IMG/VR virus record: IMGVR_UViG_3300033141_002127
Span: 1 to 29,052 of that record
DNA from: a virus
Reading direction: 5' to 3' (one strand)
DNA: 29,052 nucleotides
Shown here: piece by piece, positions 991 through 28,786 of the stretch
How the letters are laid out: each line of letters opens with the position of its first letter
Position numbering within the stretch: position 1 is the first letter of the stretch
The notes under the pieces: generated by a model
Told to the model about the DNA's origin: nothing
Databases searched by the model: none
What the model saw: the letters and a program-made list of their open reading frames with translations, nothing else
Made by a program: the position numbers and the translations under genes

Positions 991-1463
991 AATATAAAAA
1001 GGTTGGCATTTCTGTTGTTAAAAAGAACTTTACTAAGTTTTGCAACATGGTCTATGGACAGAAACCCGCCCCAGGAAGGAAGAAAAAGAAACCCCAACCC
1101 ATTCTTATTACCCGTTTTGGCAAGCCATTTATTCTAATGACCCGCTATGACGATGATTATACAATCTTGGAAGATGTCAAGGCGGGCAAAATTACCTGGG
1201 AGGACTTCAAAAACGAGATAATTGAAAGGGGTTATCGGGATGTTTTGGAGGGGAGAGTCAAAGTAAGACCCGCTGATGTTATTGGTGCTGAGAAGGTGCA
1301 AACAGAAAAGGATAGATTGAGATTGGATGCGGCGGGATTTATGCTAGAGGCGGCGAGGTATTTTTCTGGACATCTTTATTTATGTCCAAATTGTGGACAC
1401 AAAATGCTTCCCGACATAGAAGATGAAGAAAAACCTAAAGAACTTAGCCCTGGCTCCAGTTGA
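987..1463 (+). CDS. Phd/YefM-like N-terminus with C-terminal Cys motif; possible small terminase
   Basis: This 158-residue protein is not confidently assigned. Its N-terminal half (GISVVKKNFTKFCNMV, then ILITRFGKPFILMTRYDD) follows the pattern of Phd/YefM antitoxins: a helix ahead of a beta strand carrying an xILITRxGKPxxxL core. A lysine-rich insert (residues about 31-37) interrupts it. The C-terminal part is helical, then has a CPNCGH knuckle (C-x2-C) and an acidic tail. No toxin partner is visible. Position immediately before, and overlapping by 41 nt, the large terminase suggests a DNA-binding packaging protein (small terminase) built on this fold. The function is inference. Confidence 0.5.
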   Translation: MKYKKVGISVVKKNFTKFCNMVYGQKPAPGRKKKKPQPILITRFGKPFILMTRYDDDYTILEDVKAGKITWEDFKNEIIERGYRDVLEGRVKVRPADVIGAEKVQTEKDRLRLDAAGFMLEAARYFSGHLYLCPNCGHKMLPDIEDEEKPKELSPGSS

Positions 1464-3867
1464 TGCTGCTGCTTTCAGTGAATATTTCTTGGGCATTGAA
1501 TTGTCTGAGAAGCAAAAGGCGTGGGTGGAGAAATCTAATAAGCTTGTTAATATCTTAAAGTCTGGTAATCAATTCGGTAAAGGATTGTGGGAAGAAGAAA
1601 GGGTTCTTACTCCAGAAGGATGGAAGAAGGCTAAGGAAATTAAAAGGGGGGATATTTTATATTCTGTTGATGGTAATGAAACAACGGTGGTGGGAGTTTT
1701 TCCACAAGGGATACAGCAAACCTATAGACTCACCTTTTCTGATGGTTCAACTATTATTGCTGATGGCAGCCACCTTTGGTTCTCCCAACAAAGATTTAAT
1801 CGTAAAGCAAGAATTTTCTCGACAGAAGAATTATATGAAAGATATAAAAAGCACAAGACCACCAAAGCTCGTATAACAATTCCTTCCTGTTCTCCTATAA
1901 AATTTAGGACAAGAAAAGTTCCTATTTCTCCGTATCTTTTGGGTCTAATTTTGGGAGATGGCGGAATAACGTGCGGGAGTGTTAGGTTTTCAACAAAGGA
2001 CAAAGAACTTCTTAAAGGATTCGATTATAAGAAAATTAGTGGAGAGAATTGTGATTATCGTATATATGGGTTAGCCGACAAGTTAAAACAACTTGGTTTA
2101 TTAGGTAAAAATTCCCACTCAAAGTTTATTCCCGAAGATTATTTGTTTAATTGTGTAGAAAATAGACTCGCCCTTCTTCGAGGTCTTATGGACACTGATG
2201 GATGGATTGGCGAAAATGGAACAATTGAATACTATACTGTTTCAGATAGGTTAAAAGACGGGGTTGTTTTTCTCGTTCAGTCTTTGGGTGGTTATACAAA
2301 AACCAAAAAGAAAAAAACTAGTTACGGATATGTTTGGGTTGTGAGAATAAAAATCAAAATAAATCCGTTTAATTTGGCGAGGAAAGCAAACCGCTTTTAT
2401 ATTACTGAAAATACCTATAACAGAGTGCTTTACTCTGTAGAAGAAATAGATAAGAGAAAAACGATTTGCTTTTCAGTTGACCACCCCAGCCGCTTATATG
2501 TTGTTAAAGATTTTCTTGTTACACACAATACAACTGCGACAGCAATTAAACACATTTATCACGCCATGACAAAGCCGAAACTGAGGCGAATGGGTCTTGA
2601 TGCGAGCGGTTGGCTAAGGACAGAGTATCCAACTCTCAATTTCGGCAAAACTTACGAGGTATCTAAAGCGGTTTTCCACACGATTATCGATATTGTTAAT
2701 GGCGATTATATTATTCACAACCCTGAAACTGGCGATACGACAACCAATGAAAGCAAGATTAAAGAGGCGATTAGGGAAGTGAAGGAAAATCCCCTGCCTT
2801 ATATCAGGTGGTGGAACAATTCTCTTACTCTTATTCGGTCTTACGACGATTTGGGAACTTCTTTCAAAATGAAAAAGATTGCCTATATTTCTGGAGATGA
2901 GGTTGGGGATATTCCAGAGCTTATTCTTTTTGTCAACGCTACGCTTTTACCCCGCCTTGTTTTCTTTCAGGGAACCTTAGACCTTGTTGGGACTCCGCAA
3001 GAACCCAATGAGTATCAGGAAATTGTTGAATTGGCCAGAAAGGGGAACCCAGACTATTTTCTGATGGGCGGGACAATGTATGACAATCCCCATCTTGACC
3101 CCGCTTACATTAAAAAGATTGAATCTGTGGCTGACCCAGACCTAAAAAGGCGAATGGTTTATGGAGAATTCGTTGAGTCGGGAGACAGGTTTTTCCCTTT
3201 AGCAGATATTATGAACGCTTTTCGCTGGTCAGCGACTTACAACAAAGAAACACATTTTGCTGAAGAACCCAAAAAGGAGGGGAAGTATGTCCTTTCCTAC
3301 GACCCCGCCGCTTCCAACGACAATGTTGCCATTGGAGTAATCCGCTATGATGAAAAGCCGCTGAAATTAGTTTACAAAAGGCTGTTCAAAGGAAATGCAG
3401 TACCTCTCTCTATGCAGTATGAAATGGTGAGGGAAATTTATGGCAAATACAAGGGGATTAAGGCGAATATTAAATTCATTTATGACTCAGGCAGTCTTGG
3501 CGGGAAAAATGTTGGTCAGCAATTAAGAGACTTGCGGGGACTTGGGTTCCCAGGAAAAGGTAAAAGTTATCCTGATGCCAGAGCAGAAGCTCTTTCTAAG
3601 TTGAAGGCGTATTTTGAAGAAGGACGGCAAGTAAAAATTATTGATGGAAAAGAAGTAGACTCTGTGTCTGACTGGGGAATTCTGGTTTTTCCCCAAGACA
3701 GAGAACTAAGGCTGGAACTTGAGGGTTACAAGCTGGATGACAAAAAGATTAGAAACGACCAGGTGATGATGCTGGCGATGGCGGTTTGGTATATTGACAA
3801 GCTAATTCCCCGCCAGCGTTTTAAGGCGGCAGTTGACTGGGATGTCTATACAACCTTTCGTCGTTAA
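1423..3867 (+). CDS. terL: Terminase large subunit, interrupted by an intein
   Basis: The ATPase-nuclease motor packages phage DNA into the prohead. The 814-residue precursor becomes about 498 residues once residues 54-369 are excised, a normal size for the family. The Walker A motif is split: residues 48-53 (GNQFGK) precede the intein and T370-T371 follow it, giving GNQFGKTT after splicing. Walker B is IAYISGDE with D492-E493. The C-terminal RNase H-like nuclease shows D627 (SYDPAAS), D688 (IYDSGS) and D779 (RNDQVMM). Because the intein sits inside the ATP-binding loop, unspliced protein should be inactive. The gene ends just before a putative late promoter, so it belongs to the upstream operon. 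Confidence 0.93.
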   Translation: MKKNLKNLALAPVDAAAFSEYFLGIELSEKQKAWVEKSNKLVNILKSGNQFGKGLWEEERVLTPEGWKKAKEIKRGDILYSVDGNETTVVGVFPQGIQQTYRLTFSDGSTIIADGSHLWFSQQRFNRKARIFSTEELYERYKKHKTTKARITIPSCSPIKFRTRKVPISPYLLGLILGDGGITCGSVRFSTKDKELLKGFDYKKISGENCDYRIYGLADKLKQLGLLGKNSHSKFIPEDYLFNCVENRLALLRGLMDTDGWIGENGTIEYYTVSDRLKDGVVFLVQSLGGYTKTKKKKTSYGYVWVVRIKIKINPFNLARKANRFYITENTYNRVLYSVEEIDKRKTICFSVDHPSRLYVVKDFLVTHNTTATAIKHIYHAMTKPKLRRMGLDASGWLRTEYPTLNFGKTYEVSKAVFHTIIDIVNGDYIIHNPETGDTTTNESKIKEAIREVKENPLPYIRWWNNSLTLIRSYDDLGTSFKMKKIAYISGDEVGDIPELILFVNATLLPRLVFFQGTLDLVGTPQEPNEYQEIVELARKGNPDYFLMGGTMYDNPHLDPAYIKKIESVADPDLKRRMVYGEFVESGDRFFPLADIMNAFRWSATYNKETHFAEEPKKEGKYVLSYDPAASNDNVAIGVIRYDEKPLKLVYKRLFKGNAVPLSMQYEMVREIYGKYKGIKANIKFIYDSGSLGGKNVGQQLRDLRGLGFPGKGKSYPDARAEALSKLKAYFEEGRQVKIIDGKEVDSVSDWGILVFPQDRELRLELEGYKLDDKKIRNDQVMMLAMAVWYIDKLIPRQRFKAAVDWDVYTTFRR
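1582..2529 (+). mobile_element. Intein with LAGLIDADG homing endonuclease in terL Walker A
   Basis: A 316-residue intein lies between K53 and T370. Splicing block A is a VLTPEGWKKAKEIKRGD segment, block B is ADGSHLW (H117), and the C-terminus is FLVTHN with the usual penultimate His and terminal Asn, followed by Thr as the +1 residue. Two LAGLIDADG motifs lie at 172-181 (LLGLILGDGG) and about 252-260 (LRGLMDTDG), so the homing endonuclease seems intact. The first residue is Gly rather than Cys or Ser. Trp119 sits at the B:12 position and Cys349 at F:4, which are hallmarks of class 3 inteins; the usual F:5 Thr is Phe. The Walker A loop is a classic intein insertion site in terminases and other ATPases. 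Confidence 0.92.
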
Positions 3868-11150: not shown

Positions 11151-11855
11151 TTGAATCCCGAAGATGTAGGTACAGCTTCTACATCTGTTCCCCCTGCTGA
11201 TACCCAGACAGCAGCAAGTGAGGAGGGTGTCCAAACACCTGAATCCGCTGCCGAAGAAACCCAGGTGGAACAGCAAGAACAAGTAGAACCTGACTACAAG
11301 GCGCTTTACGAAGAAGAGCGTAGGCGCAGAGCAGGTCTTGATAGGAAACTATCACGACTGCAAAGGGGGCGAAAAGACACCGACGAGGAGGAGCTTTGGA
11401 CTGGCAATGAGGAGATTGACTCCACAGTCCTGCAACATCCTCTAACTCGAAAGGCTCTTGGTGAGTTGGCAAACCTGCAACTTAAAGAGGGTGTCAGAGA
11501 AGTCTTAAAAGACTTCAAGCACGTCCCTAAAGAAGTCAGGAAAGCCATACGAACCAATCCTAGAGGTTTCGCTTCAACTGCTCAGACAGTTGACGAAGCA
11601 ATAGAGGAGATTGAAAACTTCCTCCTGGAAAACTATGGCGTTGGTGCTACTGGAGAGGAACAGCCAGCAGGCAAAGAGTTCCCAGCAGCGAGCACAAATG
11701 CTTCAGTTGCTGAGTCTGAACGGGAAAAATCTCTGGATGAAATGTCAGCCAAGGAACTAGAGGCAGCTCTAGACCGAGGCGAGATTACCCTCCAGGATTT
11801 GGAACAGGAAATCAGACGACGCACAAAAGGAAAGGAGGTGAAAAAACTAAAATAG
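11151..11855 (+). CDS. Capsid scaffolding protein
   Basis: This 234-residue protein is very acidic at the N-terminus (Glu/Gln/Thr/Ser-rich, low complexity, residues 1-50). It has a charged coiled-coil segment (YKALYEEERRRRAGLDRKL) and ends in a lysine-rich tail (RRTKGKEVKKLK) that would bind the capsid protein. This composition, and the place directly upstream of the major capsid gene, is the classic scaffold pattern; no protease domain is seen. The start is TTG with the strong ribosome-binding site AAGGGGGGTG about 9 nt upstream. Confidence 0.8.
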   Translation: MNPEDVGTASTSVPPADTQTAASEEGVQTPESAAEETQVEQQEQVEPDYKALYEEERRRRAGLDRKLSRLQRGRKDTDEEELWTGNEEIDSTVLQHPLTRKALGELANLQLKEGVREVLKDFKHVPKEVRKAIRTNPRGFASTAQTVDEAIEEIENFLLENYGVGATGEEQPAGKEFPAASTNASVAESEREKSLDEMSAKELEAALDRGEITLQDLEQEIRRRTKGKEVKKLK

Positions 11856-11887
11856 ATATTAACTAAGGTTAGTGTCTATTGAAAAAC

Positions 11888-12841
11888 ATGGCAGTTATAA
11901 ATCTGGGTTCCCTGTCTGATATTGAAAAGACTTATTATCACAGGGAGGCTTTGGACTTCGCTAAACCCTCGTTGATTTATCAACAGTTTGGGCAGAAGGA
12001 CAGAGTTCCAGCTCGTGAGGGTAAGACAGCTCAGTGGATTAGGTTTTCTAAGCCGAGCTTGACATCTGGAACTGACTTCGCTGGGTCTGCGACCTATGTG
12101 AAGAACCAGACGGGTGCAGCTCCAACATGGACACCTGCAACTCCATCTGACACTACCATCACAGCTCAAATGGATGCTTTGTTTGGACAAGGTCATGAGT
12201 GGAATGAGGCAGTTCAATACACCGCCCTTGTTGACCTTCCAAAAGAGCTGAGGAAACTCAATGCCCAACACGCCGCTGAGGCTGTAGAGGTTGAGGTTCG
12301 AGATGTCATTAAGGCTGGCACAACTGTTGCTTACGCAAACAGTCGAGCGAGTAGGAGTGCGTTGGTTCCAACGGACTACATTGATATGAATGACATCTTT
12401 GATGCGGTTACTACACTCCGCAACAACGATGCTCCAACTATCAATGGTATGTACTCTGCTCTTACCAGCTACAATGTCATTTCCGAGCTGATGAAGGACT
12501 CTGCTTTCCAGTCGGCAATTCAATTCCAGAGAGACTACATCTTTACTGGAACGATTGCCGAGCTTTATGGAGTTAGGTTCCTATCTAGCTCTTTGGCTCC
12601 TTATGTTTCCAACGCTGGTTCGTCTGGCAGCGATACAGTTGAACAGACAATCATTGTTGGTCAAGGGGCTTATGGTGTTACCCACTGGTTGATGGGCGAC
12701 TACGACTTGATTTACACAAGTCCAGGTGGCCACGGAGATGAGTGGGCAACCAAGCACAAGCTCTCCTGGAAGATGTATCACAAAGCCGTGATACTCAACC
12801 AGAACTGGATGCTTAGGCTGGAGTCCGTGAGGCGAGCATAA
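11888..12841 (+). CDS. Major capsid protein, N4-gp56 family
   Basis: About 317 residues in the pattern of the N4-gp56 capsid family (HK97-like fold). It begins with a helix and the segment ALDFAKPSLIYQQFGQKDRVPAREGKTAQWIRFSKPS, where the basic/Gly GKTxxxxRF motif is typical. A MDALFGQGHEW/YTALVDLP region and the conserved helix LNAQHAAEAVEVEVRDVIKAGTTVAYAN follow, then the ELYGVRFLSSSLAP motif near residue 235. It follows the scaffold gene as expected. The start is uncertain: ATG 11888 gives a typical MAV N-terminus, while an in-frame TTG at 11879 lies about 9 nt after AAGG. A weak hairpin follows the stop. Confidence 0.9.
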   Translation: MAVINLGSLSDIEKTYYHREALDFAKPSLIYQQFGQKDRVPAREGKTAQWIRFSKPSLTSGTDFAGSATYVKNQTGAAPTWTPATPSDTTITAQMDALFGQGHEWNEAVQYTALVDLPKELRKLNAQHAAEAVEVEVRDVIKAGTTVAYANSRASRSALVPTDYIDMNDIFDAVTTLRNNDAPTINGMYSALTSYNVISELMKDSAFQSAIQFQRDYIFTGTIAELYGVRFLSSSLAPYVSNAGSSGSDTVEQTIIVGQGAYGVTHWLMGDYDLIYTSPGGHGDEWATKHKLSWKMYHKAVILNQNWMLRLESVRRA

Positions 12842-12945: not shown

Positions 12946-13107
12946 ATGATACCTTACTCTGGCAGAATAATTCCTTCACGCTGTCCTCTTTGTAAGAAGT
13001 CCTATACTCCCATTATCATGGTTAATCTGAAAGGAAAAAAACAGTTAATGTGTATAGATTGTTTTAGGAAACAAAATGCACAGCAAGAAAACCCTCAAAA
13101 ATCCTAG
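12946..13107 (+). CDS. Small zinc-ribbon protein (53 aa)
   Basis: An ATG-initiated 53-codon frame fills most of the gap between capsid and the next gene. It encodes two Cys pairs, C13-x2-C16 (CPLC) and C36-x2-C39 (CIDC), spaced as in a four-Cys zinc ribbon, with a lysine-rich loop between them. The C-terminal tail is Gln/Asn-rich and overlaps the start of the next gene by 32 nt. There is no Shine-Dalgarno; the leaderless promoter just upstream supports expression. The function is unknown; a small regulator or virion cofactor is possible. Confidence 0.6.
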   Translation: MIPYSGRIIPSRCPLCKKSYTPIIMVNLKGKKQLMCIDCFRKQNAQQENPQKS

Positions 13108-13261
13108 AAAATACATTCTTCCCTACAAGGCCAAATTCCCAGTGCCGATTAGCATCATTGTTAATGGCAAAAAGGCTTTTTTTCCTGCCAACAGAACTGT
13201 GGAACTAAACCAATCTGAATTCGAAGCGATACTAAATTCTGCTTATGGAGAATATTTATGA
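13076..13261 (+). CDS. Small capsid-adjacent protein, possible decoration domain (61 aa)
   Basis: A basic N-terminus (HSKKTLKNPRKY) leads into a compact domain, PISIIVNGKKAFFPANRTVELNQSEFEAILNSAYGEYL. Small proteins with an NGKxxFxPxNxxVELxxxEFxxIL pattern are common next to phage capsid genes and are usually annotated as hypothetical structural proteins. The same pattern appears, diverged, at the N-terminus of the glycosyltransferase at 14560. A possible GGAAA-type ribosome-binding site lies upstream (TTTTAGGAAAC). It overlaps both neighbours, and its stop overlaps the next ATG (ATGA). The virion role is inferred. Confidence 0.65.
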   Translation: MHSKKTLKNPRKYILPYKAKFPVPISIIVNGKKAFFPANRTVELNQSEFEAILNSAYGEYL

Positions 13262-14325
13262 AGAAATTAAGTATAAACTATTATGGGAGTTTCCAGTGGG
13301 GAGATGGCTATGGAACTTCTAATATGCATTGGGCAAAGTATTTGGAAAGGGCGGGGGTCAAAATCTACCCCTTTTTTACTTTTGAGGGAAGGGAGAGATA
13401 TTGGGTTGAGGGCAATCCAGAAGAAATAATTATCCTTAATAGGCCGTTTGAGAAAAAGAAGATAGGGGTTATTGAAACCCCCCCAGAATTCTTTGCCTCT
13501 AATATCTCCGACATCAAAATTGGCAGCACGATGGCTGAGACAACAGAGATAGATAAGTTTTGGGTTGACCAATGCAATCAAATGGATTATCTAGTTTTGC
13601 CAAGCACTTTTCAAAAAGAGGTTTTTAGCAAATGCGGTGTGAGAGTGCCAATTAAAGTAATTCCCTTTGGGACAGAATTTGGTTATTTTAAGCCAAAAGT
13701 TAGGCCAAAAAGGAAAGTTTTTACTTTTGGCAGTCTCGGCTTCTTTATGCCAACAAGGGATGAAAACGACAGGAAGGGCTTTTGGAAACTAATTCAAGCC
13801 TTTATTAGTGAGTTTGAGCCGAATGAGCCAGTTCGACTGCTGATTAAGTCTTCAAGCGAGGAGTCCAAGTTCTTTGTTAATTGGAAAGACCCCAGAATAG
13901 AAGTTAGAACTGATATTGTTTCAAGAGAGAAGTTGGCCGAAGTTTATTACGAAATGGATTGTTTTGTTTTGCCAACTAGAGGAGAAGGCGTAGGACAACC
14001 CCCCAGAGAAGCGATGGCAACGGGAATTCCAGCAATAATGACCAACTGGTCATCTCTTGCCGACATTTGTAATGAGGAAATTTGCTATCCATTAAATGAC
14101 TATAAGCTGGTTCGCAGAACGGGGTTTAATAGACAGCCAGGACTTTGGGCCGATGTTAATGTCCGAGAGTTAATGTACTGGATGAGATATGTTTACGAGC
14201 ATCAGGAGGAGGCTAGACAAAAAGGAAAAAGGTCGTCAAAATGGATTAGAGAGCATTTCTCTTGGGAAAATTCTGCCAAGAAAATGAGAGAGTTTTTGGA
14301 GGAATTAAATGGAAAAGTGCGTTAA
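13258..14325 (+). CDS. GT4-type (GT-B fold) glycosyltransferase
   Basis: This 355-residue enzyme should transfer a sugar from a nucleotide-activated donor. The N-terminal half has the Rossmann-like layout of GT-B enzymes (MKKLSINYYGSF, then NMHWAKYLERAGVKI). The C-terminal half has the donor-binding domain opening VFTFGSLGFFMPTRDENDRKGFWKLIQAF. The signature E-x7-E motif is E243 to E251 in LPTRGEGVGQPPREAMATGIP, diagnostic of the GT4 group. The acceptor is unknown. It is the first gene of the accessory glycan block, overlaps the previous gene as ATGA and has a GGAG ribosome-binding site. Its likely substrates are host surface glycans or virion proteins. Confidence 0.88.
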   Translation: MKKLSINYYGSFQWGDGYGTSNMHWAKYLERAGVKIYPFFTFEGRERYWVEGNPEEIIILNRPFEKKKIGVIETPPEFFASNISDIKIGSTMAETTEIDKFWVDQCNQMDYLVLPSTFQKEVFSKCGVRVPIKVIPFGTEFGYFKPKVRPKRKVFTFGSLGFFMPTRDENDRKGFWKLIQAFISEFEPNEPVRLLIKSSSEESKFFVNWKDPRIEVRTDIVSREKLAEVYYEMDCFVLPTRGEGVGQPPREAMATGIPAIMTNWSSLADICNEEICYPLNDYKLVRRTGFNRQPGLWADVNVRELMYWMRYVYEHQEEARQKGKRSSKWIREHFSWENSAKKMREFLEELNGKVR

Positions 14326-14572
14326 TTGCGGGGCGGCAAACCCAATGTTTGTTCACCGCCCAACAGGAAATTTATTTTGTTCTGATTGCTGGAACCACAT
14401 GCACCGATGTATCAAGTGCAAAAGGGTTTCTTTGGAAGGAATAACTCTAAACAAGGAAAGGTATTGTTGGGATTGTTATTTGAAGGAGTGGGGAATACAA
14501 AGAAGGCGACCCAAAACAAGAAAAGATTTCAAGCTACTGGAAAAACTATCTAAACCTATATGGGAGCAATAG
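14309..14572 (+). CDS. Double zinc-ribbon protein (87 aa)
   Basis: Eight cysteines form two four-Cys sites: C4-x2-C7 with C24-x2-C27, and C34-x2-C37 with C53-x2-C56, a LIM-like tandem. The C-terminus is basic (RRRPKTRKDFK). It starts 17 nt inside the preceding glycosyltransferase frame with a good ribosome-binding site (GGAGG) and overlaps the next gene's start by 13 nt. It probably binds nucleic acid or another protein; the catalytic neighbours suggest it could be an adaptor. No specific family is recognised. Confidence 0.7.
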   Translation: MEKCVNCGAANPMFVHRPTGNLFCSDCWNHMHRCIKCKRVSLEGITLNKERYCWDCYLKEWGIQRRRPKTRKDFKLLEKLSKPIWEQ

Positions 14573-16563
14573 AAATCAAAAATACTGGAGACTTGCCCAT
14601 TGAGGCAACTGTCGGCAACAAAAGAGTTTTTATTCCTGTTGGGGAAACGGGGATTGTGGATGAAGATGTTTTTCAGGTTTTACAAGAGAGCGTTTATCAG
14701 GATAAGTTTGAATTGGTAACCAAGCTGGCAACGAAAACAGAGCCAATTGTTGAGGGGGAAGTTCCCATTGCTTTCATTTCCGAGTTTGCTTCTAACTACA
14801 GTGGTGGAAGATATCACACTTTAGAGGTCGCTTGTGCTATGTGCGAGGCAGGAATGGATGTCCATCTGTATTGCAACCAAGAACCGCCCTTTATAGAGGA
14901 TTTCGAGGCGTATAGATTGCCCAAAATTCATGTAACGAATATCCAACATTTGGATGTCAGGGCTGGTTTTTATGTTGGCTCTCCTGTTCATGGCAGTATT
15001 ATTGCCTGCAATCTGGCAAAGAAATATGGCCGCCCAGTTTATAGTTTGGTTTTTGACTCGCTTCCTTTGATGCAGGTTTACAAACCAGAGGCTTTGGATG
15101 CCAAAGAGGAATACTGGCAGGAGTTTGTTGACGCCATCAAGACAAGCGACGCTGTTTTGTTGGCCAACTCAGAGATAACAGCACAATCGGTTAGGGCGTG
15201 GCTCAAGACAGACAAGGTAGAAGTGTTTTATCCATCTGTTAATAATAGGGCCCTGTCTCAAGCTCAACCGCAATTAAGACAGAATTATGTTGTTTTTGTT
15301 TCTCGAATTGTGAAACACAAAAACATTGAACACATGCTTGATGCCATTAAAGACCTGGAAGACTGGTCGCTCCATATCGTTACTGATACTGGTAGCCAAA
15401 TCCTTGAAGACCTTATTGAAGAAAAAGAGCTGAAGCAGAAAGTAAAGATTTATGGGGGAATTAACGACTATGAGAAATTCAAACTTTTCAAACGAGCCAA
15501 GATAATGCTTAACCCATCCACCTTTGAGGGGGCTGGTATGTGGGCGCAGGAAGCGGAAGCGTGTGGATTAAAACTTGTCTGCTATGCCCTGCCGACAATA
15601 CCAGAAATGTATAAGGGAACCGAAGTTTATAAAGCCAGAATTGGCGATAAAGAAGACCTTAAAGATAAGTTGCTTCAGGCGGCAGCAAGCAGGGAAGTCC
15701 CCCAAGAAACAACCGATTTTTATTTAGACAACTATGCCGTAAGTCGTGCCAAGGAGCTTTTCAAAGAGCCTGTAAACATCGGAGTAATAATGATAGCACT
15801 AAATGAGCAGAAATTTATAGAACCAGCCCTTAGAGCGCTTCTGGTGAGCCCACACATTAAAAAAATTGCGGTTGTTGAGGGTGCGGTAGAGTTGTATGCT
15901 CACGCAGCCACAACTGAGGGTTTAAGCAGGGATAGCACATCCACAATTATTAAGAGAGTAATAACAAAGTATGACAAAGATGGCAAAATTATCTATGACC
16001 GTTATGGCTGGGCAAAAGACAAAGCTGAACTGAGGAACAGGTGTATTGACCTTCTTGGCACTCATGTTAATTGGCTGCTAAAAGTTGATGCCGACGAGGT
16101 TTATAAAAAGGAGGATTTGGATACTTTGGCCAAGATTATGCAATCTGATGCCGCAATAACCACAATTTATATGAAGCATCTTCACTTCTGGAAAAGAAAA
16201 GATTTGATAGCGGTTGGCGGGCAGTGGGATGCCAGGCTTCCGAGGTGCTTCAGGTTTAGGGACAAAACGCTTCGCTTCCGCCAACACAACCTGCCACCCG
16301 TGAACAGCAGGGGAGAGAACATTGAGGAGCTGGGCAAAAGGATTGATACTGATGAGGTTAAAATTTATCACTATGGATATATGAAGGACGAAAAAGATGT
16401 CCGAGCAAAGCTGGAGTTTTACAAAAAGAGAGACAAGCACCTGAAAGTCATTGATACTTTTAGCAACTGGAAACCAGGAAAGCCTACCCAGCCTACGCAT
16501 CAAGGGGGAACGGTTGAGAAGTTTAAGGGAAAACATCCCAAAGTAATGAGGGGGGTAATATAG
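14560..16563 (+). CDS. Two-domain glycosyltransferase (GT4 + GT2) with small N-terminal domain
   Basis: 667 residues in three parts. Residues 1-55 form a small domain resembling the 61-residue protein encoded at 13076. Residues about 65-400 are a GT-B enzyme of the GT4 group, with ISRIVKHKNIEHMLDAI-type donor-domain entry and E-x7-E as E323 to E331 (TFEGAGMWAQEAEACG). Residues about 404-620 are a GT2/GT-A domain beginning GVIMIALNEQKFIEPAL, with the metal-binding D510-A-D512 motif (LLKVDADEVY). One polypeptide could thus add two sugars in succession. The C-terminus is basic. It has no clear Shine-Dalgarno and overlaps the zinc protein by 13 nt, so coupling is likely. Confidence 0.87.
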   Translation: MGAIEIKNTGDLPIEATVGNKRVFIPVGETGIVDEDVFQVLQESVYQDKFELVTKLATKTEPIVEGEVPIAFISEFASNYSGGRYHTLEVACAMCEAGMDVHLYCNQEPPFIEDFEAYRLPKIHVTNIQHLDVRAGFYVGSPVHGSIIACNLAKKYGRPVYSLVFDSLPLMQVYKPEALDAKEEYWQEFVDAIKTSDAVLLANSEITAQSVRAWLKTDKVEVFYPSVNNRALSQAQPQLRQNYVVFVSRIVKHKNIEHMLDAIKDLEDWSLHIVTDTGSQILEDLIEEKELKQKVKIYGGINDYEKFKLFKRAKIMLNPSTFEGAGMWAQEAEACGLKLVCYALPTIPEMYKGTEVYKARIGDKEDLKDKLLQAAASREVPQETTDFYLDNYAVSRAKELFKEPVNIGVIMIALNEQKFIEPALRALLVSPHIKKIAVVEGAVELYAHAATTEGLSRDSTSTIIKRVITKYDKDGKIIYDRYGWAKDKAELRNRCIDLLGTHVNWLLKVDADEVYKKEDLDTLAKIMQSDAAITTIYMKHLHFWKRKDLIAVGGQWDARLPRCFRFRDKTLRFRQHNLPPVNSRGENIEELGKRIDTDEVKIYHYGYMKDEKDVRAKLEFYKKRDKHLKVIDTFSNWKPGKPTQPTHQGGTVEKFKGKHPKVMRGVI

Positions 16564-17103
16564 ATGGGCATAGAACTAAAAGGATTTGCGGGTAGAAGTG
16601 CTGTTTCAGATATTGAAAGGGAGGGGTTGTTGGAGATTATTCCAGAGAAAGGTTCTGTGATTGAAATCGGGACGCTTGATGGAACAACCGTTGCTTACTG
16701 GGCAACCAAGAGAAATAAGGCGGATTTTTTGAGCATAGACCCATTTAGGGCTGGAACTGGCACTGGCCCAGGTAATCCAGAAAATTGGATGAAGAACAAG
16801 AAGCCCAACATGTGGTTGTTTGTCGGCACATCTTGGGATTACATAACTTGGGCTGGTAGAAATCCAGAAAAAGTAGATATTGTTTTTGTTGATGGCGACC
16901 ACAGCGAAGGGGGTTGTTACAACGACTTGCTGGCGACCCACAAGCACTTGGTGAAAGAGGACGGGGTGATTGTTGCTCACGACTACGGCCGAGAGAAAAA
17001 CCACCTTTTGGCTGGTGTTACTAGAGCCGTTGATAAGTTTGTTAAAGAAACCGACTGGAAAATTAGCAAAATAGTTGGTTATATGGCTTTTCTGAAAAAA
17101 TGA
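16564..17103 (+). CDS. Class I SAM-dependent methyltransferase
   Basis: This 179-residue protein matches the Methyltransf_24 type often found in sugar and capsule gene clusters. Motif I is VIEIGTLDGTT (residues 32-42, with G36 and G40), the acidic residue at the end of strand 2 is D59 (LSIDPF), and strand 4 carries VDIVFVDGDHSEGG, the characteristic DGDH motif. The glycan context suggests methylation of a sugar or polyol, though protein or small-molecule targets are possible. The GGGGGGT ribosome-binding site lies just upstream. Its stop overlaps the next start (ATGA at 17100). Confidence 0.85.
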   Translation: MGIELKGFAGRSAVSDIEREGLLEIIPEKGSVIEIGTLDGTTVAYWATKRNKADFLSIDPFRAGTGTGPGNPENWMKNKKPNMWLFVGTSWDYITWAGRNPEKVDIVFVDGDHSEGGCYNDLLATHKHLVKEDGVIVAHDYGREKNHLLAGVTRAVDKFVKETDWKISKIVGYMAFLKK

Positions 17104-17867
17104 TTAAGTATGTAGTTTTCAGTCGCTTTAATCATATACATAGAACCCTGGATGACCCCAGAACTAAGCGTTGTTTGTTAAACCCCGATTGGTGGAAACA
17201 GCGAGTTGGACTATTTGAAAAATATACCCTCAAAAGCCTAAAACGACAGGCTTTCAAAGACTTTGAGATATGGACTCCGATTAGTCCCCATGCCCCCAAA
17301 GAAGGAGTAAAGTATTTGCTGGAGTCCGCCAAAAAGCATGGCTTTCACGCTTTCTATGATGTGGCTGATAACAAGACCAAGTTTAGTAAGCCCTATACAG
17401 AAGCTATTAAAAGATGCGGAGACGCTGATTGGCTGGTTCTTATTAACATTGACAGCGATGATATTTACAGAAGCGATGCGATTAGAAAAATTTCTCTTTA
17501 TAAGCCAAGGCCAGGATTAACTTTAATTTTTGAAGATGGCTTTATCTACGACCCACGAAATGATAGGCTGGCATATTACGAAATGAAGAATTCTCCACCG
17601 CCCTTTTTTGCGATATGTTATTCCAGAGAAGCCCTTAAAGATGAGGAGAGCTTTTTAGAATACGAAAAGGAATGGAAATTGGATGGTTTTCATTATGAAT
17701 TACTAAGGACAAAAAACCATAAGTTGATAGGTAGCGGTCATTATAGCTATATTGTTCATGGAACAAATACATCAACTGCCTGGCAGAGAGAGGAAACGGC
17801 TAGACATATTGTTTATGAGTTCAAAGACAAAGTAAAGGAAGATATAAAAGGATTTTTGGGTTTATGA
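17100..17867 (+). CDS. Putative rhamnosyltransferase-like glycosyltransferase
   Basis: A 255-residue protein in the pattern of the putative rhamnosyl transferase family (GT-A-like). The N-terminus reads KYVVFSRFNHIHR with an RVGLFEKYTLKSLKRQAFKDFEIW segment, and the metal-binding acidic cluster is INIDSDDIYR (D118, D120, D121). This layout is common in bacterial cell-surface glycan loci. It overlaps both neighbours by 4 nt (ATGA). It is the third glycosyltransferase gene in the block, so at least four GT domains occur together. The acceptor is unknown. Confidence 0.75.
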   Translation: MIKYVVFSRFNHIHRTLDDPRTKRCLLNPDWWKQRVGLFEKYTLKSLKRQAFKDFEIWTPISPHAPKEGVKYLLESAKKHGFHAFYDVADNKTKFSKPYTEAIKRCGDADWLVLINIDSDDIYRSDAIRKISLYKPRPGLTLIFEDGFIYDPRNDRLAYYEMKNSPPPFFAICYSREALKDEESFLEYEKEWKLDGFHYELLRTKNHKLIGSGHYSYIVHGTNTSTAWQREETARHIVYEFKDKVKEDIKGFLGL

Positions 17868-18571
17868 AAACTGTAGATTATTTCAAATACGATTGGGACA
17901 TTCTCTTTATCTTTGATGCCTGTCGGGTAGGCGCCTTTGAGAAATTGATGAAATCCAAAAAACTGAGGGGAAAAATGGAAGTTGTAAACAGCGGGGCGGT
18001 GGCTACTCCCTTTTGGTATGCCCTTCATTGGGCTGAGCCAAGAAAAGTTCATTTAGTTTCTTCTAATCCCCACCCTTTTATAAAGACGAGCAGGTTTGCC
18101 CACAAGAACTTTTTGAGTGCTACTAGGGCTTGGAAAAGCGATAGGGTTGACCCTAGACACACCCTAGATGTTTTTTGGAAGAAATACACGGAAGGCAAAT
18201 GGCTGGTTCATATTATGCCACCACACCTTCCTTACATCGGAGAAAAAGGGGCTAAGTTCATGGAAAAATTTGAGGGCGAGCAACGAAAGACTGGCGTTTC
18301 TTTTTATAGGGGAATTGAGACTTATGGTAGGGAAAATGGGTGGGAGGAGTTGAAAGGATATTATCAAGAGTCTTTAGAAAAAGCTTTTGATATTGTAAAG
18401 CCCGACCTTGACAAAATGCGGGCAAAAGGGTTAAAGGTAATTATTACCTCTGACCACTCGGAGCTAATAGGTGAACAAAATATCTATGACCACAACGACA
18501 AAAGAGGAGAGGGATTGCGGGAGCTATTAACCACAGTTCCCTTATTGAAATATGAAGGAACGGATAGTTAA
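17864..18571 (+). CDS. Alkaline-phosphatase/sulfatase superfamily protein
   Basis: The 235-residue protein starts with ILFIFDACRVGAFEK (D18, C20, R21), the first metal/nucleophile strand seen in compact sulfatase-like proteins. Near the C-terminus it has IITSDHSELIGEQ (D197, H198, E200), the second metal-site motif of the superfamily. MPPHLPYIG is a further typical segment. Possible reactions are phosphate or sulfate ester cleavage, or phospho-substituent transfer. It is shorter than classical sulfatases (400-500 residues), and Cys20 might be the modifiable or direct nucleophile; this is speculative. It lies between a glycosyltransferase and a sulfate-activation-like gene, which makes glycan phosphate/sulfate chemistry a sensible guess. 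Confidence 0.7.
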   Translation: MKTVDYFKYDWDILFIFDACRVGAFEKLMKSKKLRGKMEVVNSGAVATPFWYALHWAEPRKVHLVSSNPHPFIKTSRFAHKNFLSATRAWKSDRVDPRHTLDVFWKKYTEGKWLVHIMPPHLPYIGEKGAKFMEKFEGEQRKTGVSFYRGIETYGRENGWEELKGYYQESLEKAFDIVKPDLDKMRAKGLKVIITSDHSELIGEQNIYDHNDKRGEGLRELLTTVPLLKYEGTDS

Positions 18572-19160
18572 AAACATTATCGAGAGTGCTTTCAAGTTAG
18601 CCAAAAACCCTATTGTTTTCTGGACAGGGGGAAAGGACTCAACCTTGATGTTGTGGTTTATTCTTCAGGTAGTTAAACCTAGCGACTTCATCGTTGTTTT
18701 TTTGGACTCTGGTCGTGAGTTTGCTGATATTCGTCGGTTTATTTGGGAATGTCGTTTTGAGTGGGGGCTCAATCTAAAGCTGTTCTATTATAGAGCTACT
18801 ACTGCCAAGACCGCCAAAGAAAACAAGGTTAGGGCAGTAAAAAAAGCAATCAAGGAACTAAAAGCCGATTATGCCTTCATTGGTATTCGGTGGGATGAAC
18901 ACAAAACCAGAAGCAAGGAAACCTTTTTCAGTCCGAGAAAAGACCATGTCAGGGTTCATCCTATTCTTCACCTAACCGAGAAGGATATTTGGAGAATTAC
19001 CAAAAAGAACAAAATTCCCTATTGTATATTGTACGACAAAGGCTATCGTTCTTTGGGCGAGGAATCCTTTACCAAGAAGGGTGGTCAAGGTGAGAGGTCG
19101 GGTAGGGACGCAGACAAGGAAAAAGACATGGCGAGGCTTCGAGCTTTGGGCTATTTCTAA
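18552..19160 (+). CDS. PAPS reductase / CysD-like ATP pyrophosphatase
   Basis: A 202-residue N-type ATP pyrophosphatase. The PP-loop is WTGGKDST (residues 24-31; the usual SGGKDS has Thr for Ser), followed by IVVFLDSGREF. A GIRWDEHKTRSKE segment and HPILHLTEKDIWRI are typical of PAPS reductases and CysD. The C-terminus, GERSGRDADKEKDMARLRALGYF, closely resembles the CysD end (gER.GR.iD......K..GYF), while the ECGLH-type catalytic Cys of PAPS reductase is not seen. CysD adenylates sulfate to APS. Phage homologues are common, and their roles are debated (sulfur metabolism, DNA or tRNA modification). It overlaps the preceding gene by 20 nt. Confidence 0.8.
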   Translation: MKERIVKNIIESAFKLAKNPIVFWTGGKDSTLMLWFILQVVKPSDFIVVFLDSGREFADIRRFIWECRFEWGLNLKLFYYRATTAKTAKENKVRAVKKAIKELKADYAFIGIRWDEHKTRSKETFFSPRKDHVRVHPILHLTEKDIWRITKKNKIPYCILYDKGYRSLGEESFTKKGGQGERSGRDADKEKDMARLRALGYF

Positions 19161-19203: not shown

Positions 19204-19764
19204 ATGCCGAAAGCAAAAGTTGGTGTTAGACATAATGTCTCCTATCGGCTTAAGGGCAAGAATGGAGAGATAAAACCGCTTTTCCAAGAAAATGGATTGG
19301 GAAGGCTTCTGTTGAAGTTTGGGCTGCAACCACCTCAAATACCCCACTTGTTTGGAACTTTTGTCAAAGTAAAAAAGGTGTCGAATCTGGTAACCAATGC
19401 TGGTAAGGCAGGAGTAGCCGCCAGGATTATTGACAACACCACAGAAGCCGCCTTTGATTATATTGCTATTGGAACTGGTACAACTGCGGCAGCCGCAGGC
19501 GATACCGCTTTAGAGTCCGAAATCTCTAGCGGTGGTGGGGAAAGAGCCCAAGATGCCTCTCCTTCAAGAACCACAACAGATGTTACCAACGATACGGCCG
19601 TTATTGATGTAACATTTAATTTCACTTCTTCTTTTGCGGTAACAGAGTCTGGATTGTTTAATGCCGCAAGCAGTGGAACCCTTCTGGCAAGGCAGGTGTT
19701 TTCTGCAATAAACGTTGCCAGCGGGGACAGCCTTACTATAACCTGGGAAATTGATGTGGACTAA
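19204..19764 (+). CDS. Tail/virion structural protein (186 aa)
   Basis: The N-terminal 60 residues are basic and mixed. The rest is Ala/Thr/Ser-rich beta-type sequence with YIAIGTGTTAAAAGDTALESEI, then ERAQDASPSRTTTDV and VTESGLFNAASSGTLLARQVF, ending SLTITWEIDVD. This GTGxTxxxxxDTAL(x)xEI ... TESGLF pattern recurs in phage tail-fibre-associated and baseplate-like proteins. It probably forms part of the tail or fibre base. It is the first gene after the glycan block and has its own putative late promoter. Confidence 0.65.
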   Translation: MPKAKVGVRHNVSYRLKGKNGEIKPLFQENGLGRLLLKFGLQPPQIPHLFGTFVKVKKVSNLVTNAGKAGVAARIIDNTTEAAFDYIAIGTGTTAAAAGDTALESEISSGGGERAQDASPSRTTTDVTNDTAVIDVTFNFTSSFAVTESGLFNAASSGTLLARQVFSAINVASGDSLTITWEIDVD

Positions 19765-23951: not shown

Positions 23952-26900
23952 ATGAGCATCGTAGACCTAGAGGGGAAATATCATTGTAAAATAGATGGCA
24001 ACGGCTTTATTATTGCCCACACTAGGGCGGGTAGGTTTTTGTATGAGAAAAAACCCGCACCCGCTTTTGTTAATAAATTTGGTTCTGGAGACAGCTCATA
24101 CAGGGATTCAACTTTCTGGCAATTCTGGGCACAACTTAACTGGAGGAACGGTGCCAAGCAAGAAAGATTTGATGACACATCCAAATTCTGGAAGTCCGAA
24201 AATGTGGATGTTACTCAGGTAGAGAGAATCAAGTTGTCTCGTGCCCTGGCTTCTGTTGGTCAAGTAGTGGCTGGTGCAAAGGCAACCGCCTCAGTTGCTT
24301 GGAGGGGCACTCAAAGTTGGTGGGACAACAATTATAATTATCGGAAGCAACTAACTATTACTGCACCAAGCGGTAGTCAAATTCCATCAGGCTATCCTAT
24401 TGTCGTTACCGAAGATACTAACGCCCTAGAAACAGCAGGAAAACTAAGGTCTGACAGAAAGGATTGGAGAATTGTTTACTGGAATGGGACGAGCTGGGTT
24501 GATTTAACAAGGCACTATATTACTGCTACCAGAACAATCTTTGCCACCCAAGCAGCCATTCCTGCTGGCTCAACCACAACCGACTATTATCTTTACTATG
24601 GCTATGCAAGTGAATCTACCTCTAAGCAACCCTCAAGCGATGACGAGTGGAACGAGATTTATGTTCCTGAAGATATTGGTAATCCATTGATTTTGGCTCA
24701 CGCCAAAGAGGGCTCAGGAACCTCGGTGGAGAACACGGCTACTGGCAAAACAAACAATGGCTCACTTAATTCGGTTAGTTGGACTTCTTCAAATACAAAG
24801 TTTGGATATGCACTAGATATTCCAGGCTCAAGCATTGACCACATCACTTTTCCCTACGCTTCGGGAATGGATGTGGATGACTTTACCTTTGAGTGCTTCT
24901 TGAAATCTGACAGCTCAAGTCCCAATGGAGTATTGGCCAGACAAGAACTGAAGTGGCAAGTGGGGTTTGGTGACGGCGGGAAGATTGGGGTTACCCTCTG
25001 GGGAGCAACGGGCTCTATTACGAGAACGACAACAAACAAGGTTGTCAATGATACAAACTGGCATCATATTGCTATTGCCTTTGATGGGAGCTGGATAGTC
25101 AAGGTTTACAAAGATGGTTCTTTGTTTCAAAGCCTAGATTTTTCTGGCGACCATGGGCAGACATTCATTCGCTCAAGGAGTTCTGATTTAGTAGTTGGGT
25201 ATAGCTTCAATGGCAAAATAAGCAATATAAGGTTTATGGGTGATGAGGTTATTTCTTACCCCTATGCCTTCTCGGACTCGGTTTCGGTATCAGCAGGAAC
25301 AGAGGAAGAAACTCAGCCACCCGCTTCTTCATTTGAGGTTTTTACGGGCTTTGACAACGGGAAAATTTATAAGTGGGATGGCGGAACTAGTTGGTCAGAG
25401 GAGTTTGATTGTCGAAGATTGACTTGGCATGAAAGCGGCGGAGATGCCAACAAGATTATTGGAGATAGCGGTGGAACAGAATATGCTCATGCTCAGTCTT
25501 TTCAATTATCAGAAGCTCAAACAATTAAGGCAGTAGAAGTTTATCTCAAGAAAAATGCGGGCACACCAGGCGATATAACAGTTAGAATTGAAACAGACAA
25601 CGCTGGCGTTCCCTCTGGCACACTGGCTGATGCCAACGCTACCACTACCATCTCTGCTTTTACTAGCACTAGTTATGCTTGGAAGGAAGCAATCTTTTCT
25701 TCTTCCTTTTCACTAAGTGCTTCTACTACTTATTGGCTGGTTTTGAAGACAGCGGCTGCCGCTAACGACAATAATTATACCTGGAGAGTGGATGCCTCAT
25801 CCCCATCTTATACAGACGGCAATATGGCAAGCTCATCAAATGGCGGTTCTAGCTGGTCAGCACAATCTGGTTGGGATGCTTATTTCAGAATTTTATCTCA
25901 AGACACCAAGATTTATTGCTCTCTTGTTTCTTCAATTGGAGGAACACAAAAGGCGTGGTGGGGGGTGGGAGACATAGAAAATGAAACCGATGGAGATGCA
26001 AGACTTTATTCCTATGATGGCACTAATTGGGCTTTGGAAAAAACTTTTACTAACGGGACAAGCTCAGCGGTTACATCTCTTGCAGAGTATAATGACAAAA
26101 TCTATGCGGCAACTGCACCGCAGGCTTATATTCTTTCAAGTTCTGATGCAAGTACTTGGACACAATCAACCCAAATTAGGGTGCCCCAGAACCCTGGCTT
26201 TGTTTGGGTAATGACTGAATATAATCAGCGATTGTATGTTGGCGGGGGTTCGCCAGAGTTTCTACCAGACGAAAAATACAACGGCTTTGTTTATTACCAC
26301 GATGGTATTAGTTGGGAGAGCCTTTATCCTTTTGACCACACAGTGATTACTGCAATGGGCTTCTACGACGCCTTCCTTTTCATTGGCACTTATCATGGCC
26401 AAGTTTACATCTTTGACACCGCAACGCTTGACCCGCTAATTACTTTCCGAGATGACTATGATTATCAGGTTCAGATTACCGACTTTATATTCTTTGATGA
26501 CAAGATGTATATTGCTCTCGCCCCACAAGATGGGACTGGCGATACTAATTCGGCACTGTGGTTATTTGAAAGGCACGGGATTTCGGCAGTCAACGCTATT
26601 CCTTCTGGCCTTTCAGTAACTGGGCTTTATCACTTTGTTCAGGCGAACAATACCCTTTTGGTCGGGGCAGACAATGGATATGTGTTTATGGTTGACAAAG
26701 ACAATTATGAGGCGAGTGGTTGGCTACAGACTTCCTACTTTGATGCCATTTTGCCTTCAATAGACAAGCTATACAACGAATTAAAAATTCAGCATGACCC
26801 CTTACCCACGGGAACAACGATTACTGTTTATTACAGATTTAAGGAAGATGATAGCTGGACAACGCTGGGGACGATAGATACTCCTAATACAACCGAAACA

Positions 26901-27305
26901 ACGCTTAGTTTTCCTACGGGGATTGTTTCCAAGAAAATTAGTTTCAAGTATGAGCTGGCAACAACCGATACATCCAAAACCCCTGTTGTTAGAGAAACGG
27001 TTCTGAAGTACACCCTTAATCCAGACAGGAAGTGGCAGTGGAACTTGAGAATTCTAGTTAAAGGAACAACCGCCAAAGATAAGATTATTCTTCTTGACAA
27101 GACACAAGATTCAAGAACCGCATCGAGTATTAGAAGTCAGATTGAGGGTTCTCAAAATTCAAACCAGCTTATCCAATTCATTGACATTGATGGGCAATCT
27201 TATACTGTATTATTCCACGCTCTGGATGAGCAGAGTTGGGTAATTAACAACGATTCGTCGGACTTGAACGAAAATACAGTTGCTGTTACGCTGATAGAGG
27301 CGTAA
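23952..27305 (+). CDS. Large multidomain tail/receptor-binding protein (1117 aa)
   Basis: Domains in order: an N-terminal virion-anchoring part (1-115); a DUF2341-like domain (about 120-210) with WWDNNYNYRKQLTI and DYYLYYGYAS; a LamG/concanavalin-like domain (about 235-440) with DVDDFTFECFLKSD and NWHHIAIAFDG; and a region with DITVRIETDNAGVPSGTL and TTYWLVLKTA (about 520-620), a choice-of-anchor-type beta domain. Next comes a beta-propeller-like stretch (about 655-920) with repeated YNDKIYAAT, YNQRLYVGG, DAFLFIGTY and FDDKMYIAL blades. The C-terminal beta domain (about 930-1117) is found in other phage tail proteins. This is the likeliest carbohydrate-receptor-binding protein in the window. 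Confidence 0.8.
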   Translation: MSIVDLEGKYHCKIDGNGFIIAHTRAGRFLYEKKPAPAFVNKFGSGDSSYRDSTFWQFWAQLNWRNGAKQERFDDTSKFWKSENVDVTQVERIKLSRALASVGQVVAGAKATASVAWRGTQSWWDNNYNYRKQLTITAPSGSQIPSGYPIVVTEDTNALETAGKLRSDRKDWRIVYWNGTSWVDLTRHYITATRTIFATQAAIPAGSTTTDYYLYYGYASESTSKQPSSDDEWNEIYVPEDIGNPLILAHAKEGSGTSVENTATGKTNNGSLNSVSWTSSNTKFGYALDIPGSSIDHITFPYASGMDVDDFTFECFLKSDSSSPNGVLARQELKWQVGFGDGGKIGVTLWGATGSITRTTTNKVVNDTNWHHIAIAFDGSWIVKVYKDGSLFQSLDFSGDHGQTFIRSRSSDLVVGYSFNGKISNIRFMGDEVISYPYAFSDSVSVSAGTEEETQPPASSFEVFTGFDNGKIYKWDGGTSWSEEFDCRRLTWHESGGDANKIIGDSGGTEYAHAQSFQLSEAQTIKAVEVYLKKNAGTPGDITVRIETDNAGVPSGTLADANATTTISAFTSTSYAWKEAIFSSSFSLSASTTYWLVLKTAAAANDNNYTWRVDASSPSYTDGNMASSSNGGSSWSAQSGWDAYFRILSQDTKIYCSLVSSIGGTQKAWWGVGDIENETDGDARLYSYDGTNWALEKTFTNGTSSAVTSLAEYNDKIYAATAPQAYILSSSDASTWTQSTQIRVPQNPGFVWVMTEYNQRLYVGGGSPEFLPDEKYNGFVYYHDGISWESLYPFDHTVITAMGFYDAFLFIGTYHGQVYIFDTATLDPLITFRDDYDYQVQITDFIFFDDKMYIALAPQDGTGDTNSALWLFERHGISAVNAIPSGLSVTGLYHFVQANNTLLVGADNGYVFMVDKDNYEASGWLQTSYFDAILPSIDKLYNELKIQHDPLPTGTTITVYYRFKEDDSWTTLGTIDTPNTTETTLSFPTGIVSKKISFKYELATTDTSKTPVVRETVLKYTLNPDRKWQWNLRILVKGTTAKDKIILLDKTQDSRTASSIRSQIEGSQNSNQLIQFIDIDGQSYTVLFHALDEQSWVINNDSSDLNENTVAVTLIEA

Positions 27306-27871: not shown

Positions 27872-28786
27872 ATGAAATTGCCAATACCGCCCTTAGGACA
27901 GAAAGACGCTCGTTGGGGACGCAAGCGGTTAGGTAATAGTACATCAACAATTTCAAGTGCGGGGTGTTTGTTGGTGTGCCATACAATGATGCTCAATTAT
28001 TATGGCCACGAGTTCACACCAGACACACTAAATGCAGTTTACAAAGAAAAAGGGGTTTACGACCAAGGAAATTTAATTAACTTTTATGCAGCCGCCAAAG
28101 TGTTCGGAGACTTAACGGCTGATGAGTTTTATAATTGTTATGACATACCTTGTGATTTATCAAAAATTGACGATTACCTTGCGAAAAGGATGCCAGTTAT
28201 TGCCCTTGTTGACTTTGATTTAATTCCGTCAACGGGGGTTCAGACACATTTTGTTCTGATAATTGGCCGAGAAGAAGATGGGGCTTACTATTGTAATGAC
28301 CCCTGGACAGGAGAAACTTATTATTTTCATGCTAAATATGGCGACCCGAAAAAATTTATTTACGGACTTAGGCTTTATTCGGGGACTCCGAAAGAGGGGG
28401 AGGCTCTTGATGACAAGGTATCCGATTTACAGGACAAACTTAAAGCTTGTAATGAGGCGGTGGCGGCTAAGTCCCTTGAGGTTAACACTCTTAGGGATGA
28501 ACTTGAAACTCAAGAACGGGATAACAAGAATTTGGCAGACCAGCTTGTTGCGGCAAGAAGTGAGAGAGATAAGGAGGCTTGGGCAAAAGAACAGCTTGAA
28601 GCAAAAAACAAAACTCTTTTGGAAGAAGTGGAAAAACTAAAAAGAGAAAAGAAGGAGTTGAAAGTGAGAATAGATGTTTTGAAAAAATCAATCTTTGAAG
28701 GACTGACTAAGTGGGAGGCTTTGGCCTTAACCATTGGTAAGTTCCTCAAAAGAAAGGAAAAGGGGGGTGAGAACATAGATGGGTGA
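27872..28786 (+). CDS. Endolysin with C39-type cysteine peptidase domain
   Basis: Residues 1-175 follow the Peptidase_C39_2 pattern: PPLGQKDARWGRKRLG opening, TISSAGCLLVCHTMMLNYYG with C32 the likely nucleophile, THFVLIIG with H126, and a NDPW motif at 142-145 supplying the Asn/Asp. Such domains cut the peptide part of peptidoglycan. Residues about 183-275 are a long coiled coil (KVSDLQDKLKACNEAV, EEVEKLKREKKELK), which may multimerise the enzyme or bind the wall. There is no signal peptide, so release would rely on a holin, and a holin-like gene follows. GGAG lies just upstream. It overlaps the next gene by 8 nt. Confidence 0.85.
   Translation: MKLPIPPLGQKDARWGRKRLGNSTSTISSAGCLLVCHTMMLNYYGHEFTPDTLNAVYKEKGVYDQGNLINFYAAAKVFGDLTADEFYNCYDIPCDLSKIDDYLAKRMPVIALVDFDLIPSTGVQTHFVLIIGREEDGAYYCNDPWTGETYYFHAKYGDPKKFIYGLRLYSGTPKEGEALDDKVSDLQDKLKACNEAVAAKSLEVNTLRDELETQERDNKNLADQLVAARSERDKEAWAKEQLEAKNKTLLEEVEKLKREKKELKVRIDVLKKSIFEGLTKWEALALTIGKFLKRKEKGGENIDG

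Follow-up and report, generated by a model that had tools for sequence, protein, structure and literature searches.

A glycan gene cassette of changing content behind the capsid gene in a phage lineage with a link to Patescibacteria

What is a block of glycan genes doing among the structural genes of a phage? The question is raised by a virus record of 29,052 bp (IMG/VR record IMGVR_UViG_3300033141_002127, here called the window), which is probably a genome fragment (29 kb, compared with 41-45 kb in the longest relatives). A first-pass annotation had described positions 13258-19160 as a co-directional, overlapping block between capsid and tail genes, with three glycosyltransferase (GT) genes carrying four GT domains, a methyltransferase gene, an alkaline-phosphatase-fold protein and a CysD/PAPS-reductase-like gene. 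Seven touching or overlapping plus-strand open reading frames bear out this description, and each of the named gene types was recovered by profile matches to the protein or its homologues. The extent of the block has to be revised: a zinc-ribbon gene at 14309-14572 had been overlooked, the gene for a small protein, S1, had been omitted, and the unit begins at 13076. The post-capsid block comprises eight genes on the plus strand, from 13076 to 19160, which abut or overlap by 4-20 nt. With its flanks, it reads as follows:

11879..12841, + strand: major capsid protein (MCP), upstream flank; phrog_1357 major head protein, E 9e-39
13076..13261, + strand: S1, 61-aa small protein, in all GT4-bearing relatives inspected
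13258..14325, + strand: core GT4 glycosyltransferase; Pfam PF13692/PF00534, GT1/GT4 family, E 7e-11
14309..14572, + strand: zinc-ribbon protein, 87 aa, with CxxC pairs
14560..16563, + strand: GT4-GT2 fusion; Pfam GT4 4e-21, GT2 4e-5
16564..17103, + strand: SAM methyltransferase, Methyltransf_24 type; Pfam PF13578, 1e-11
17100..17867, + strand: GT2-like / putative rhamnosyltransferase; Pfam Rhamno_transf PF11316, 1e-8; DSD motif at D118
17864..18571, + strand: alkaline-phosphatase-superfamily enzyme; homologues match PF00884/PF08665; invariant ligand set
18552..19160, + strand: PP-loop protein, CysD/PAPS reductase/FAD synthase group; PAPS_reduct PF01507, 7e-32
19204..19764, + strand: phrog_5417 virion-type protein, downstream flank; phrog_5417, 3e-24

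The location between capsid and tail genes holds in outline. Upstream is a major head protein; downstream is a member of phrog_5417, a family of unknown function, which also has weaker matches to tail-fibre/virion PHROGs and whose homologues come after the cassette or the empty site in relatives (53-58% identity in L017 and L026). Promoter and terminator scans gave results at chance level.

Other genes of the window have features of their own. In the large terminase gene (TerL, 1423-3867) the Walker A region is broken by an intein-like insert (GNQFGK ... LVTHN TTATAIKH), the first residues of which are G/L rather than Cys/Ser and the W/C/T positions of which we take to fit a class 3 intein; the TerL of relative L004 is uninterrupted (GNRWGKTMSEAIKH). 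In the late gene run, 23952-27305 encodes a protein of 1117 aa with a Laminin_G_3/ConA-like domain. Near the end of the window, 27872-28786 encodes a Peptidase_C39_2 domain and, behind it, a charged tail resembling a coiled coil, and adjoins the gene of a 67-aa protein at the window's end.

A catalytic-type signature is kept in all four GT domains of the block: EX7E motifs at E243 (E243/E251) in 13258 and at E323 in 14560, and motifs of the DxD type in 14560 (D510) and 17100 (D118). The GT1/GT4 profile match and the EX7E motif together place the core enzyme among the GT4 glycosyltransferases. Orthologues of the core GT4 behind the MCP of relatives are 36-68% identical to 13258, and the EX7E motif is invariant in all ten that were aligned. 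The GT4-GT2 fusion has a syntenic orthologue in L002 (40%), and the Methyltransf_24-type family of 16564 recurs in the cassettes of L012, L014 and L020. Two relatives differ around the start of the core GT4. In L004 S1 and GT4 are separated by an HNH-type gene of opposite orientation (11236-11811, minus strand), and the annotated start of GT4 is truncated compared with relatives. In L015 there is an in-frame TGA near the start (11690-11740, NWYG*GWMNALSGYG); this gene may start at an internal Met or may be disrupted.

The other enzymes bear on what kind of glycan might be made, which had been anticipated to be methylated, phosphorylated or sulfated. The 17864 protein itself has no significant Pfam hit, but its homologues match Sulfatase/PglZ (PF00884/PF08665), and in an alignment of these proteins D18, T48, H116, H121, D197, H198 and H210 are invariant. 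We take these residues to be metal ligands and the candidate nucleophile. Conserved ligands and a candidate nucleophile, Thr48, place the enzyme in the alkaline phosphatase superfamily. Formylglycine sulfatases have a CxPxR nucleophile motif; this motif is absent from 17864, where Thr occupies the invariant candidate nucleophile position. Homologues adjoin GT or polysaccharide genes on haloarchaeal plasmids and in one Patescibacteria genome, whereas no close relatives were found in scans of viral and genome contigs, nor among phages. The AF2 model made from the single sequence was unusable (pLDDT 44). Since the homologues lie beside glycan genes, the ligand-type residues are invariant and the candidate nucleophile is Thr, phospho-transfer or hydrolysis is likelier than desulfation, and phosphate chemistry is plausible for this enzyme.

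Sulfation fares worse. The 18552 protein has matches among CysD, PAPS reductase and FAD synthase sequences, and its C-terminal part is also FAD synthase-like. PAPS reductases (CysH) have a C-terminal ECGLH cysteine motif; the C-terminal region of 18552 is without cysteine and ends GERSGRDADKEKDMARLRALGYF. A search of 12 other genomes or records did not find the gene, and neither the cassette nor the scanned proteins of the window, itself probably a fragment, yielded a CysN, an APS kinase or a sulfotransferase. On these grounds sulfation is unsupported, and a sulfated glycan was rejected, the partner genes being absent. Of the earlier suggestion, glycan building and modification find support, with phosphate plausible, and sulfation does not.

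S1 is predicted to fold as beta-beta-beta-beta-alpha (AF2 pLDDT 83). It is present in every GT4-bearing relative inspected and absent at the empty site of L026, and for all 15 phages in the GT tree its subtype (with or without an internal insert, assigned by eye from alignments and translations) agrees with the GT clade, L021 having only a shorter insert. S1 is a component of the cassette, linked to the core GT4. The N-terminus of the 14560 fusion (about 60 aa) resembles S1: its first 60 residues match the S1 profile with hhalign E 1.6e-5 and probability 79% over 36 columns, compared with E 0.001 for the best non-S1 match in a random-piece control of 294 pieces, the case for homology resting on short alignments. 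Foldseek gave no significant match for S1 (best E 0.05), several DUF7443 phage proteins being among the weak hits. A test for a link between S1 and the small domain that some cassettes have at their far end gave no support. The zinc-ribbon protein is 51% identical to its L002 orthologue (window 14309-14572), and zinc-ribbon-type proteins adjoin GT4/S1 also in L004 (12827), L008 (657), L014 (10999), L015 (10944) and L017 (12269); several of these recurring proteins have a TPFWK..G..P motif in common.

Whether relatives carry or lack the block at the same site was the comparison that the first-pass annotation had proposed. Relatives were recruited by capsid-based scans of IMG/VR and GTDB genomes, giving 16 distinct relatives after duplicate contigs were merged, with capsid identities of 39-86% over the matched segment (L005, a 24% hit, was excluded). 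S1 and an orthologous GT4 are found directly behind the MCP in 15 of the 16, counting L023, the contig of which holds only the start of GT4, and L029, which holds part of it. In most relatives further glycan genes follow before the downstream virion genes and, as far as the contigs reach, in a set differing from that of the window: a GDP-mannose 4,6-dehydratase-type gene (L002); RmlD, a DegT aminotransferase and a GT2-GT4 fusion (L004, L006, L017); methyltransferases, GTs, DegT and a cupin (L012); or GT8-like and GT2-like genes and a methyltransferase (L021). The longest run, of about 15 kb, is in G005/L014; with L064 1-8467 (G005 30000-38466) this cassette amounts to roughly a third of a 44-kb record, and several of its GT2-like and methyltransferase-like genes are related to one another. 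The sixteenth relative, L026, has an empty site, where the MCP is followed by a 95-aa ORF and then by the 19204 homologue (53%); its whole 41-kb record has no match to the core GT profile, PF00534 or PF00535. Against a virion role, the MCP is conserved in this phage without a cassette, and assembly therefore does not depend on the glycan. In 12 virus records, the GT-family matches lie in the cassette region behind the MCP. Splitting of the block by unrelated genes, which had been named as a sign against it, was not seen; the interruptions seen are HNH homing-endonuclease-like genes, in L004 and L053. Remotely related in its capsid, Bacillus phage Pascal has small hypothetical genes behind the MCP, then tail genes, and no annotated GT.

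The core GT and S1, directly behind the MCP, share their inheritance, but do not always share it with the MCP itself. The capsid tree divides into one clade (99/99) with the window, L002, L004, L017, L008, L014 and L015 and a second (100/99) with nine others; the GT tree groups the window with L002, L004, L017, L006, L027 and L029 in one clade and places the other eight in a second (both 100/100). The two trees conflict with strong support; therefore, the cassette has moved between phages. A block kept at one spot with changing contents points to viruses that put a sugar coat on their own particles, and on balance virion proteins are probably glycosylated by this modular cassette, the enzymes of which are soluble.

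The near-absence of membrane components points in the same direction. In a Kyte-Doolittle scan, two of 80 cassette proteins (both borderline) showed membrane-like segments, compared with 33 of the 49 proteins from a glycan region on a Candidatus Collierbacteria contig; none of the 80 was recognised as a flippase, a polymerase or a priming transferase, and no Pfam hit was to a flippase. Together with the position behind the MCP, this favours soluble glycosylation of virion proteins over the building of a surface polysaccharide, although membrane parts could be borrowed from the host.

That contig also provides the link to a host. The lineage has podovirus-type portal and capsid genes, and one member, with 65% capsid identity, is in a Patescibacteria contig: the Collierbacteria MAG contig, of 124,693 bp, which was the only GTDB match of the capsid profile scan. 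It carries genes that, from their sequence, we take to be rpoB and rpoC (about 4.5-11.6 kb), and from about 92 kb on, where GC goes up, phage-like genes follow. The phage region has no recognised integrase next to it and may be integrated or an assembly chimera. The large late protein of the window (23952-27305) has no match in this MAG. A profile search of 380 genomes of the same phylum gave three further remote capsid matches, two of which (L053 and L054) have GT genes a few genes behind the MCP; in L053 (3207-9127) these are GT2, methyltransferase-like, epimerase-like, DUF2334 deacetylase-like and GT4 genes. We infer that the window's own host belongs to the Patescibacteria.

Could the enzymes act on the host instead? 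The glycans of an infected, possibly lysogenic, cell might be altered to block superinfection or to aid attachment of the episymbiotic host to its partner. Some members do look temperate (G005 has an integrase, and in G001 the phage region is joined to rpoB/rpoC), soluble GTs could act on lipid-linked or surface glycans through the host's membrane machinery, and the large glycan region of the host contig could supply the membrane parts. In groundwater Patescibacteriota phages, moreover, O-antigen nucleotide-sugar genes have been read as aids to host adhesion (PMC12911398). Against this, the cassettes bring no recognisable flippase, polymerase or priming transferase of their own, the block sits at one fixed site in the virion gene run and not in a lysogeny region, and the core GT and S1 are co-inherited directly behind the MCP. 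Host-surface remodelling is the main rival, though a rather unlikely one. The first-pass annotation had taken the late-region location to favour virion decoration or late surface remodelling; this argument is strengthened by the 15 of 16 relatives that keep GT4 there, and the near-absence of membrane components favours virions.

A less probable explanation, and a doubtful one, is that the gap behind the MCP merely tolerates insertion and has collected loosely selected glycan genes without one common target. Such a hotspot for cargo would fit contents that vary strongly (up to the 15 kb of G005), HNH genes in the gap and a cassette that can be missing altogether, but it sits poorly with a GT4 orthologue and linked S1 in 15 of 16 relatives, an EX7E motif invariant in ten, genes that are intact and overlapping, and recognised contents that are almost only glycan functions. 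Phage GTs that glycosylate modified DNA bases exist, but a role in sugaring the phage DNA, as in T4-like phages, is very improbable given that the cassette has no base-modifying partner, that nucleotide-sugar aminotransferases, dehydratases and O-methyltransferases point to an oligosaccharide, and that the genes lie in the virion gene run.

How might virion glycosylation proceed? We infer late expression, a virion target, an order of steps and a role for S1 as adaptor or acceptor. The soluble enzymes most likely work in the cytoplasm, late in infection. The core GT4, aided by S1 and the zinc-ribbon protein, would start or direct the addition of glycan to an abundant virion protein, the acceptor being perhaps the capsid or S1 itself. 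The GT4-GT2 fusion, docked via its S1-like N-terminal domain, and the GT2 of 17100 would then extend the chain, which the methyltransferase may decorate with O-methyl groups and the alkaline-phosphatase-superfamily enzyme by transfer or removal of phosphate or a phospho-alcohol. A bolder version is offered tentatively: the site may be a swappable capsid "serotype" locus of Patescibacteria phages, comparable to bacterial O-antigen loci, with S1, bound to the virion, serving a family of soluble GTs as acceptor or adaptor and with close phages wearing chemically different glycans.

Sugar-transfer genes that are phage-borne and exchangeable are also found in the gtr serotype-conversion cassettes of temperate phages, which encode the membrane proteins GtrA, GtrB and Gtr(type); the present cassettes differ in having no membrane flippase/transferase and no multi-membrane protein (two borderline cases in 80). 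Arthrobacter phage KellEzio, an unrelated phage, likewise has a GT4-type gene among head and tail genes (gp28, 24% identical to 13258), but this is a single GT with different neighbours. In mycobacteriophages Che8, Corndog and Myrna, phage GTs add sugar to capsid and tail-tube proteins (Freeman et al. 2023, as cited in PMC12363180). The window shares with the Che8/Corndog type a phage-encoded GT with an intact catalytic motif; it differs in that several genes form a cassette, methyltransferases among them and nucleotide-sugar enzymes too in relatives, and in that this cassette occupies one fixed site behind the MCP, is exchanged between phages and is linked to small S1. The groundwater Patescibacteriota phages have rmlD-type genes, interpreted as host-metabolism genes, and ConA-like domains, both counted as auxiliary metabolic genes (PMC12911398); here the nucleotide-sugar genes lie between the MCP and virion genes, and the large late protein 23952-27305 carries the ConA-like domain. 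Thus, virion glycosylation and nucleotide-sugar genes in Patescibacteria phages have both been reported already. What is new, as far as found in a partial coverage of the literature, is a fixed, swappable post-capsid glycan locus linked to a small partner protein. Nucleotide-sugar genes in phages of ultra-small groundwater bacteria have been understood as a benefit to the host, but the position of this locus behind the capsid gene allows another reading, in which the phage adds sugar to its own particle and exchanges the set of sugars. If true, virion glycosylation extends past the actinophage examples found, to phages of uncultured symbiotic bacteria.
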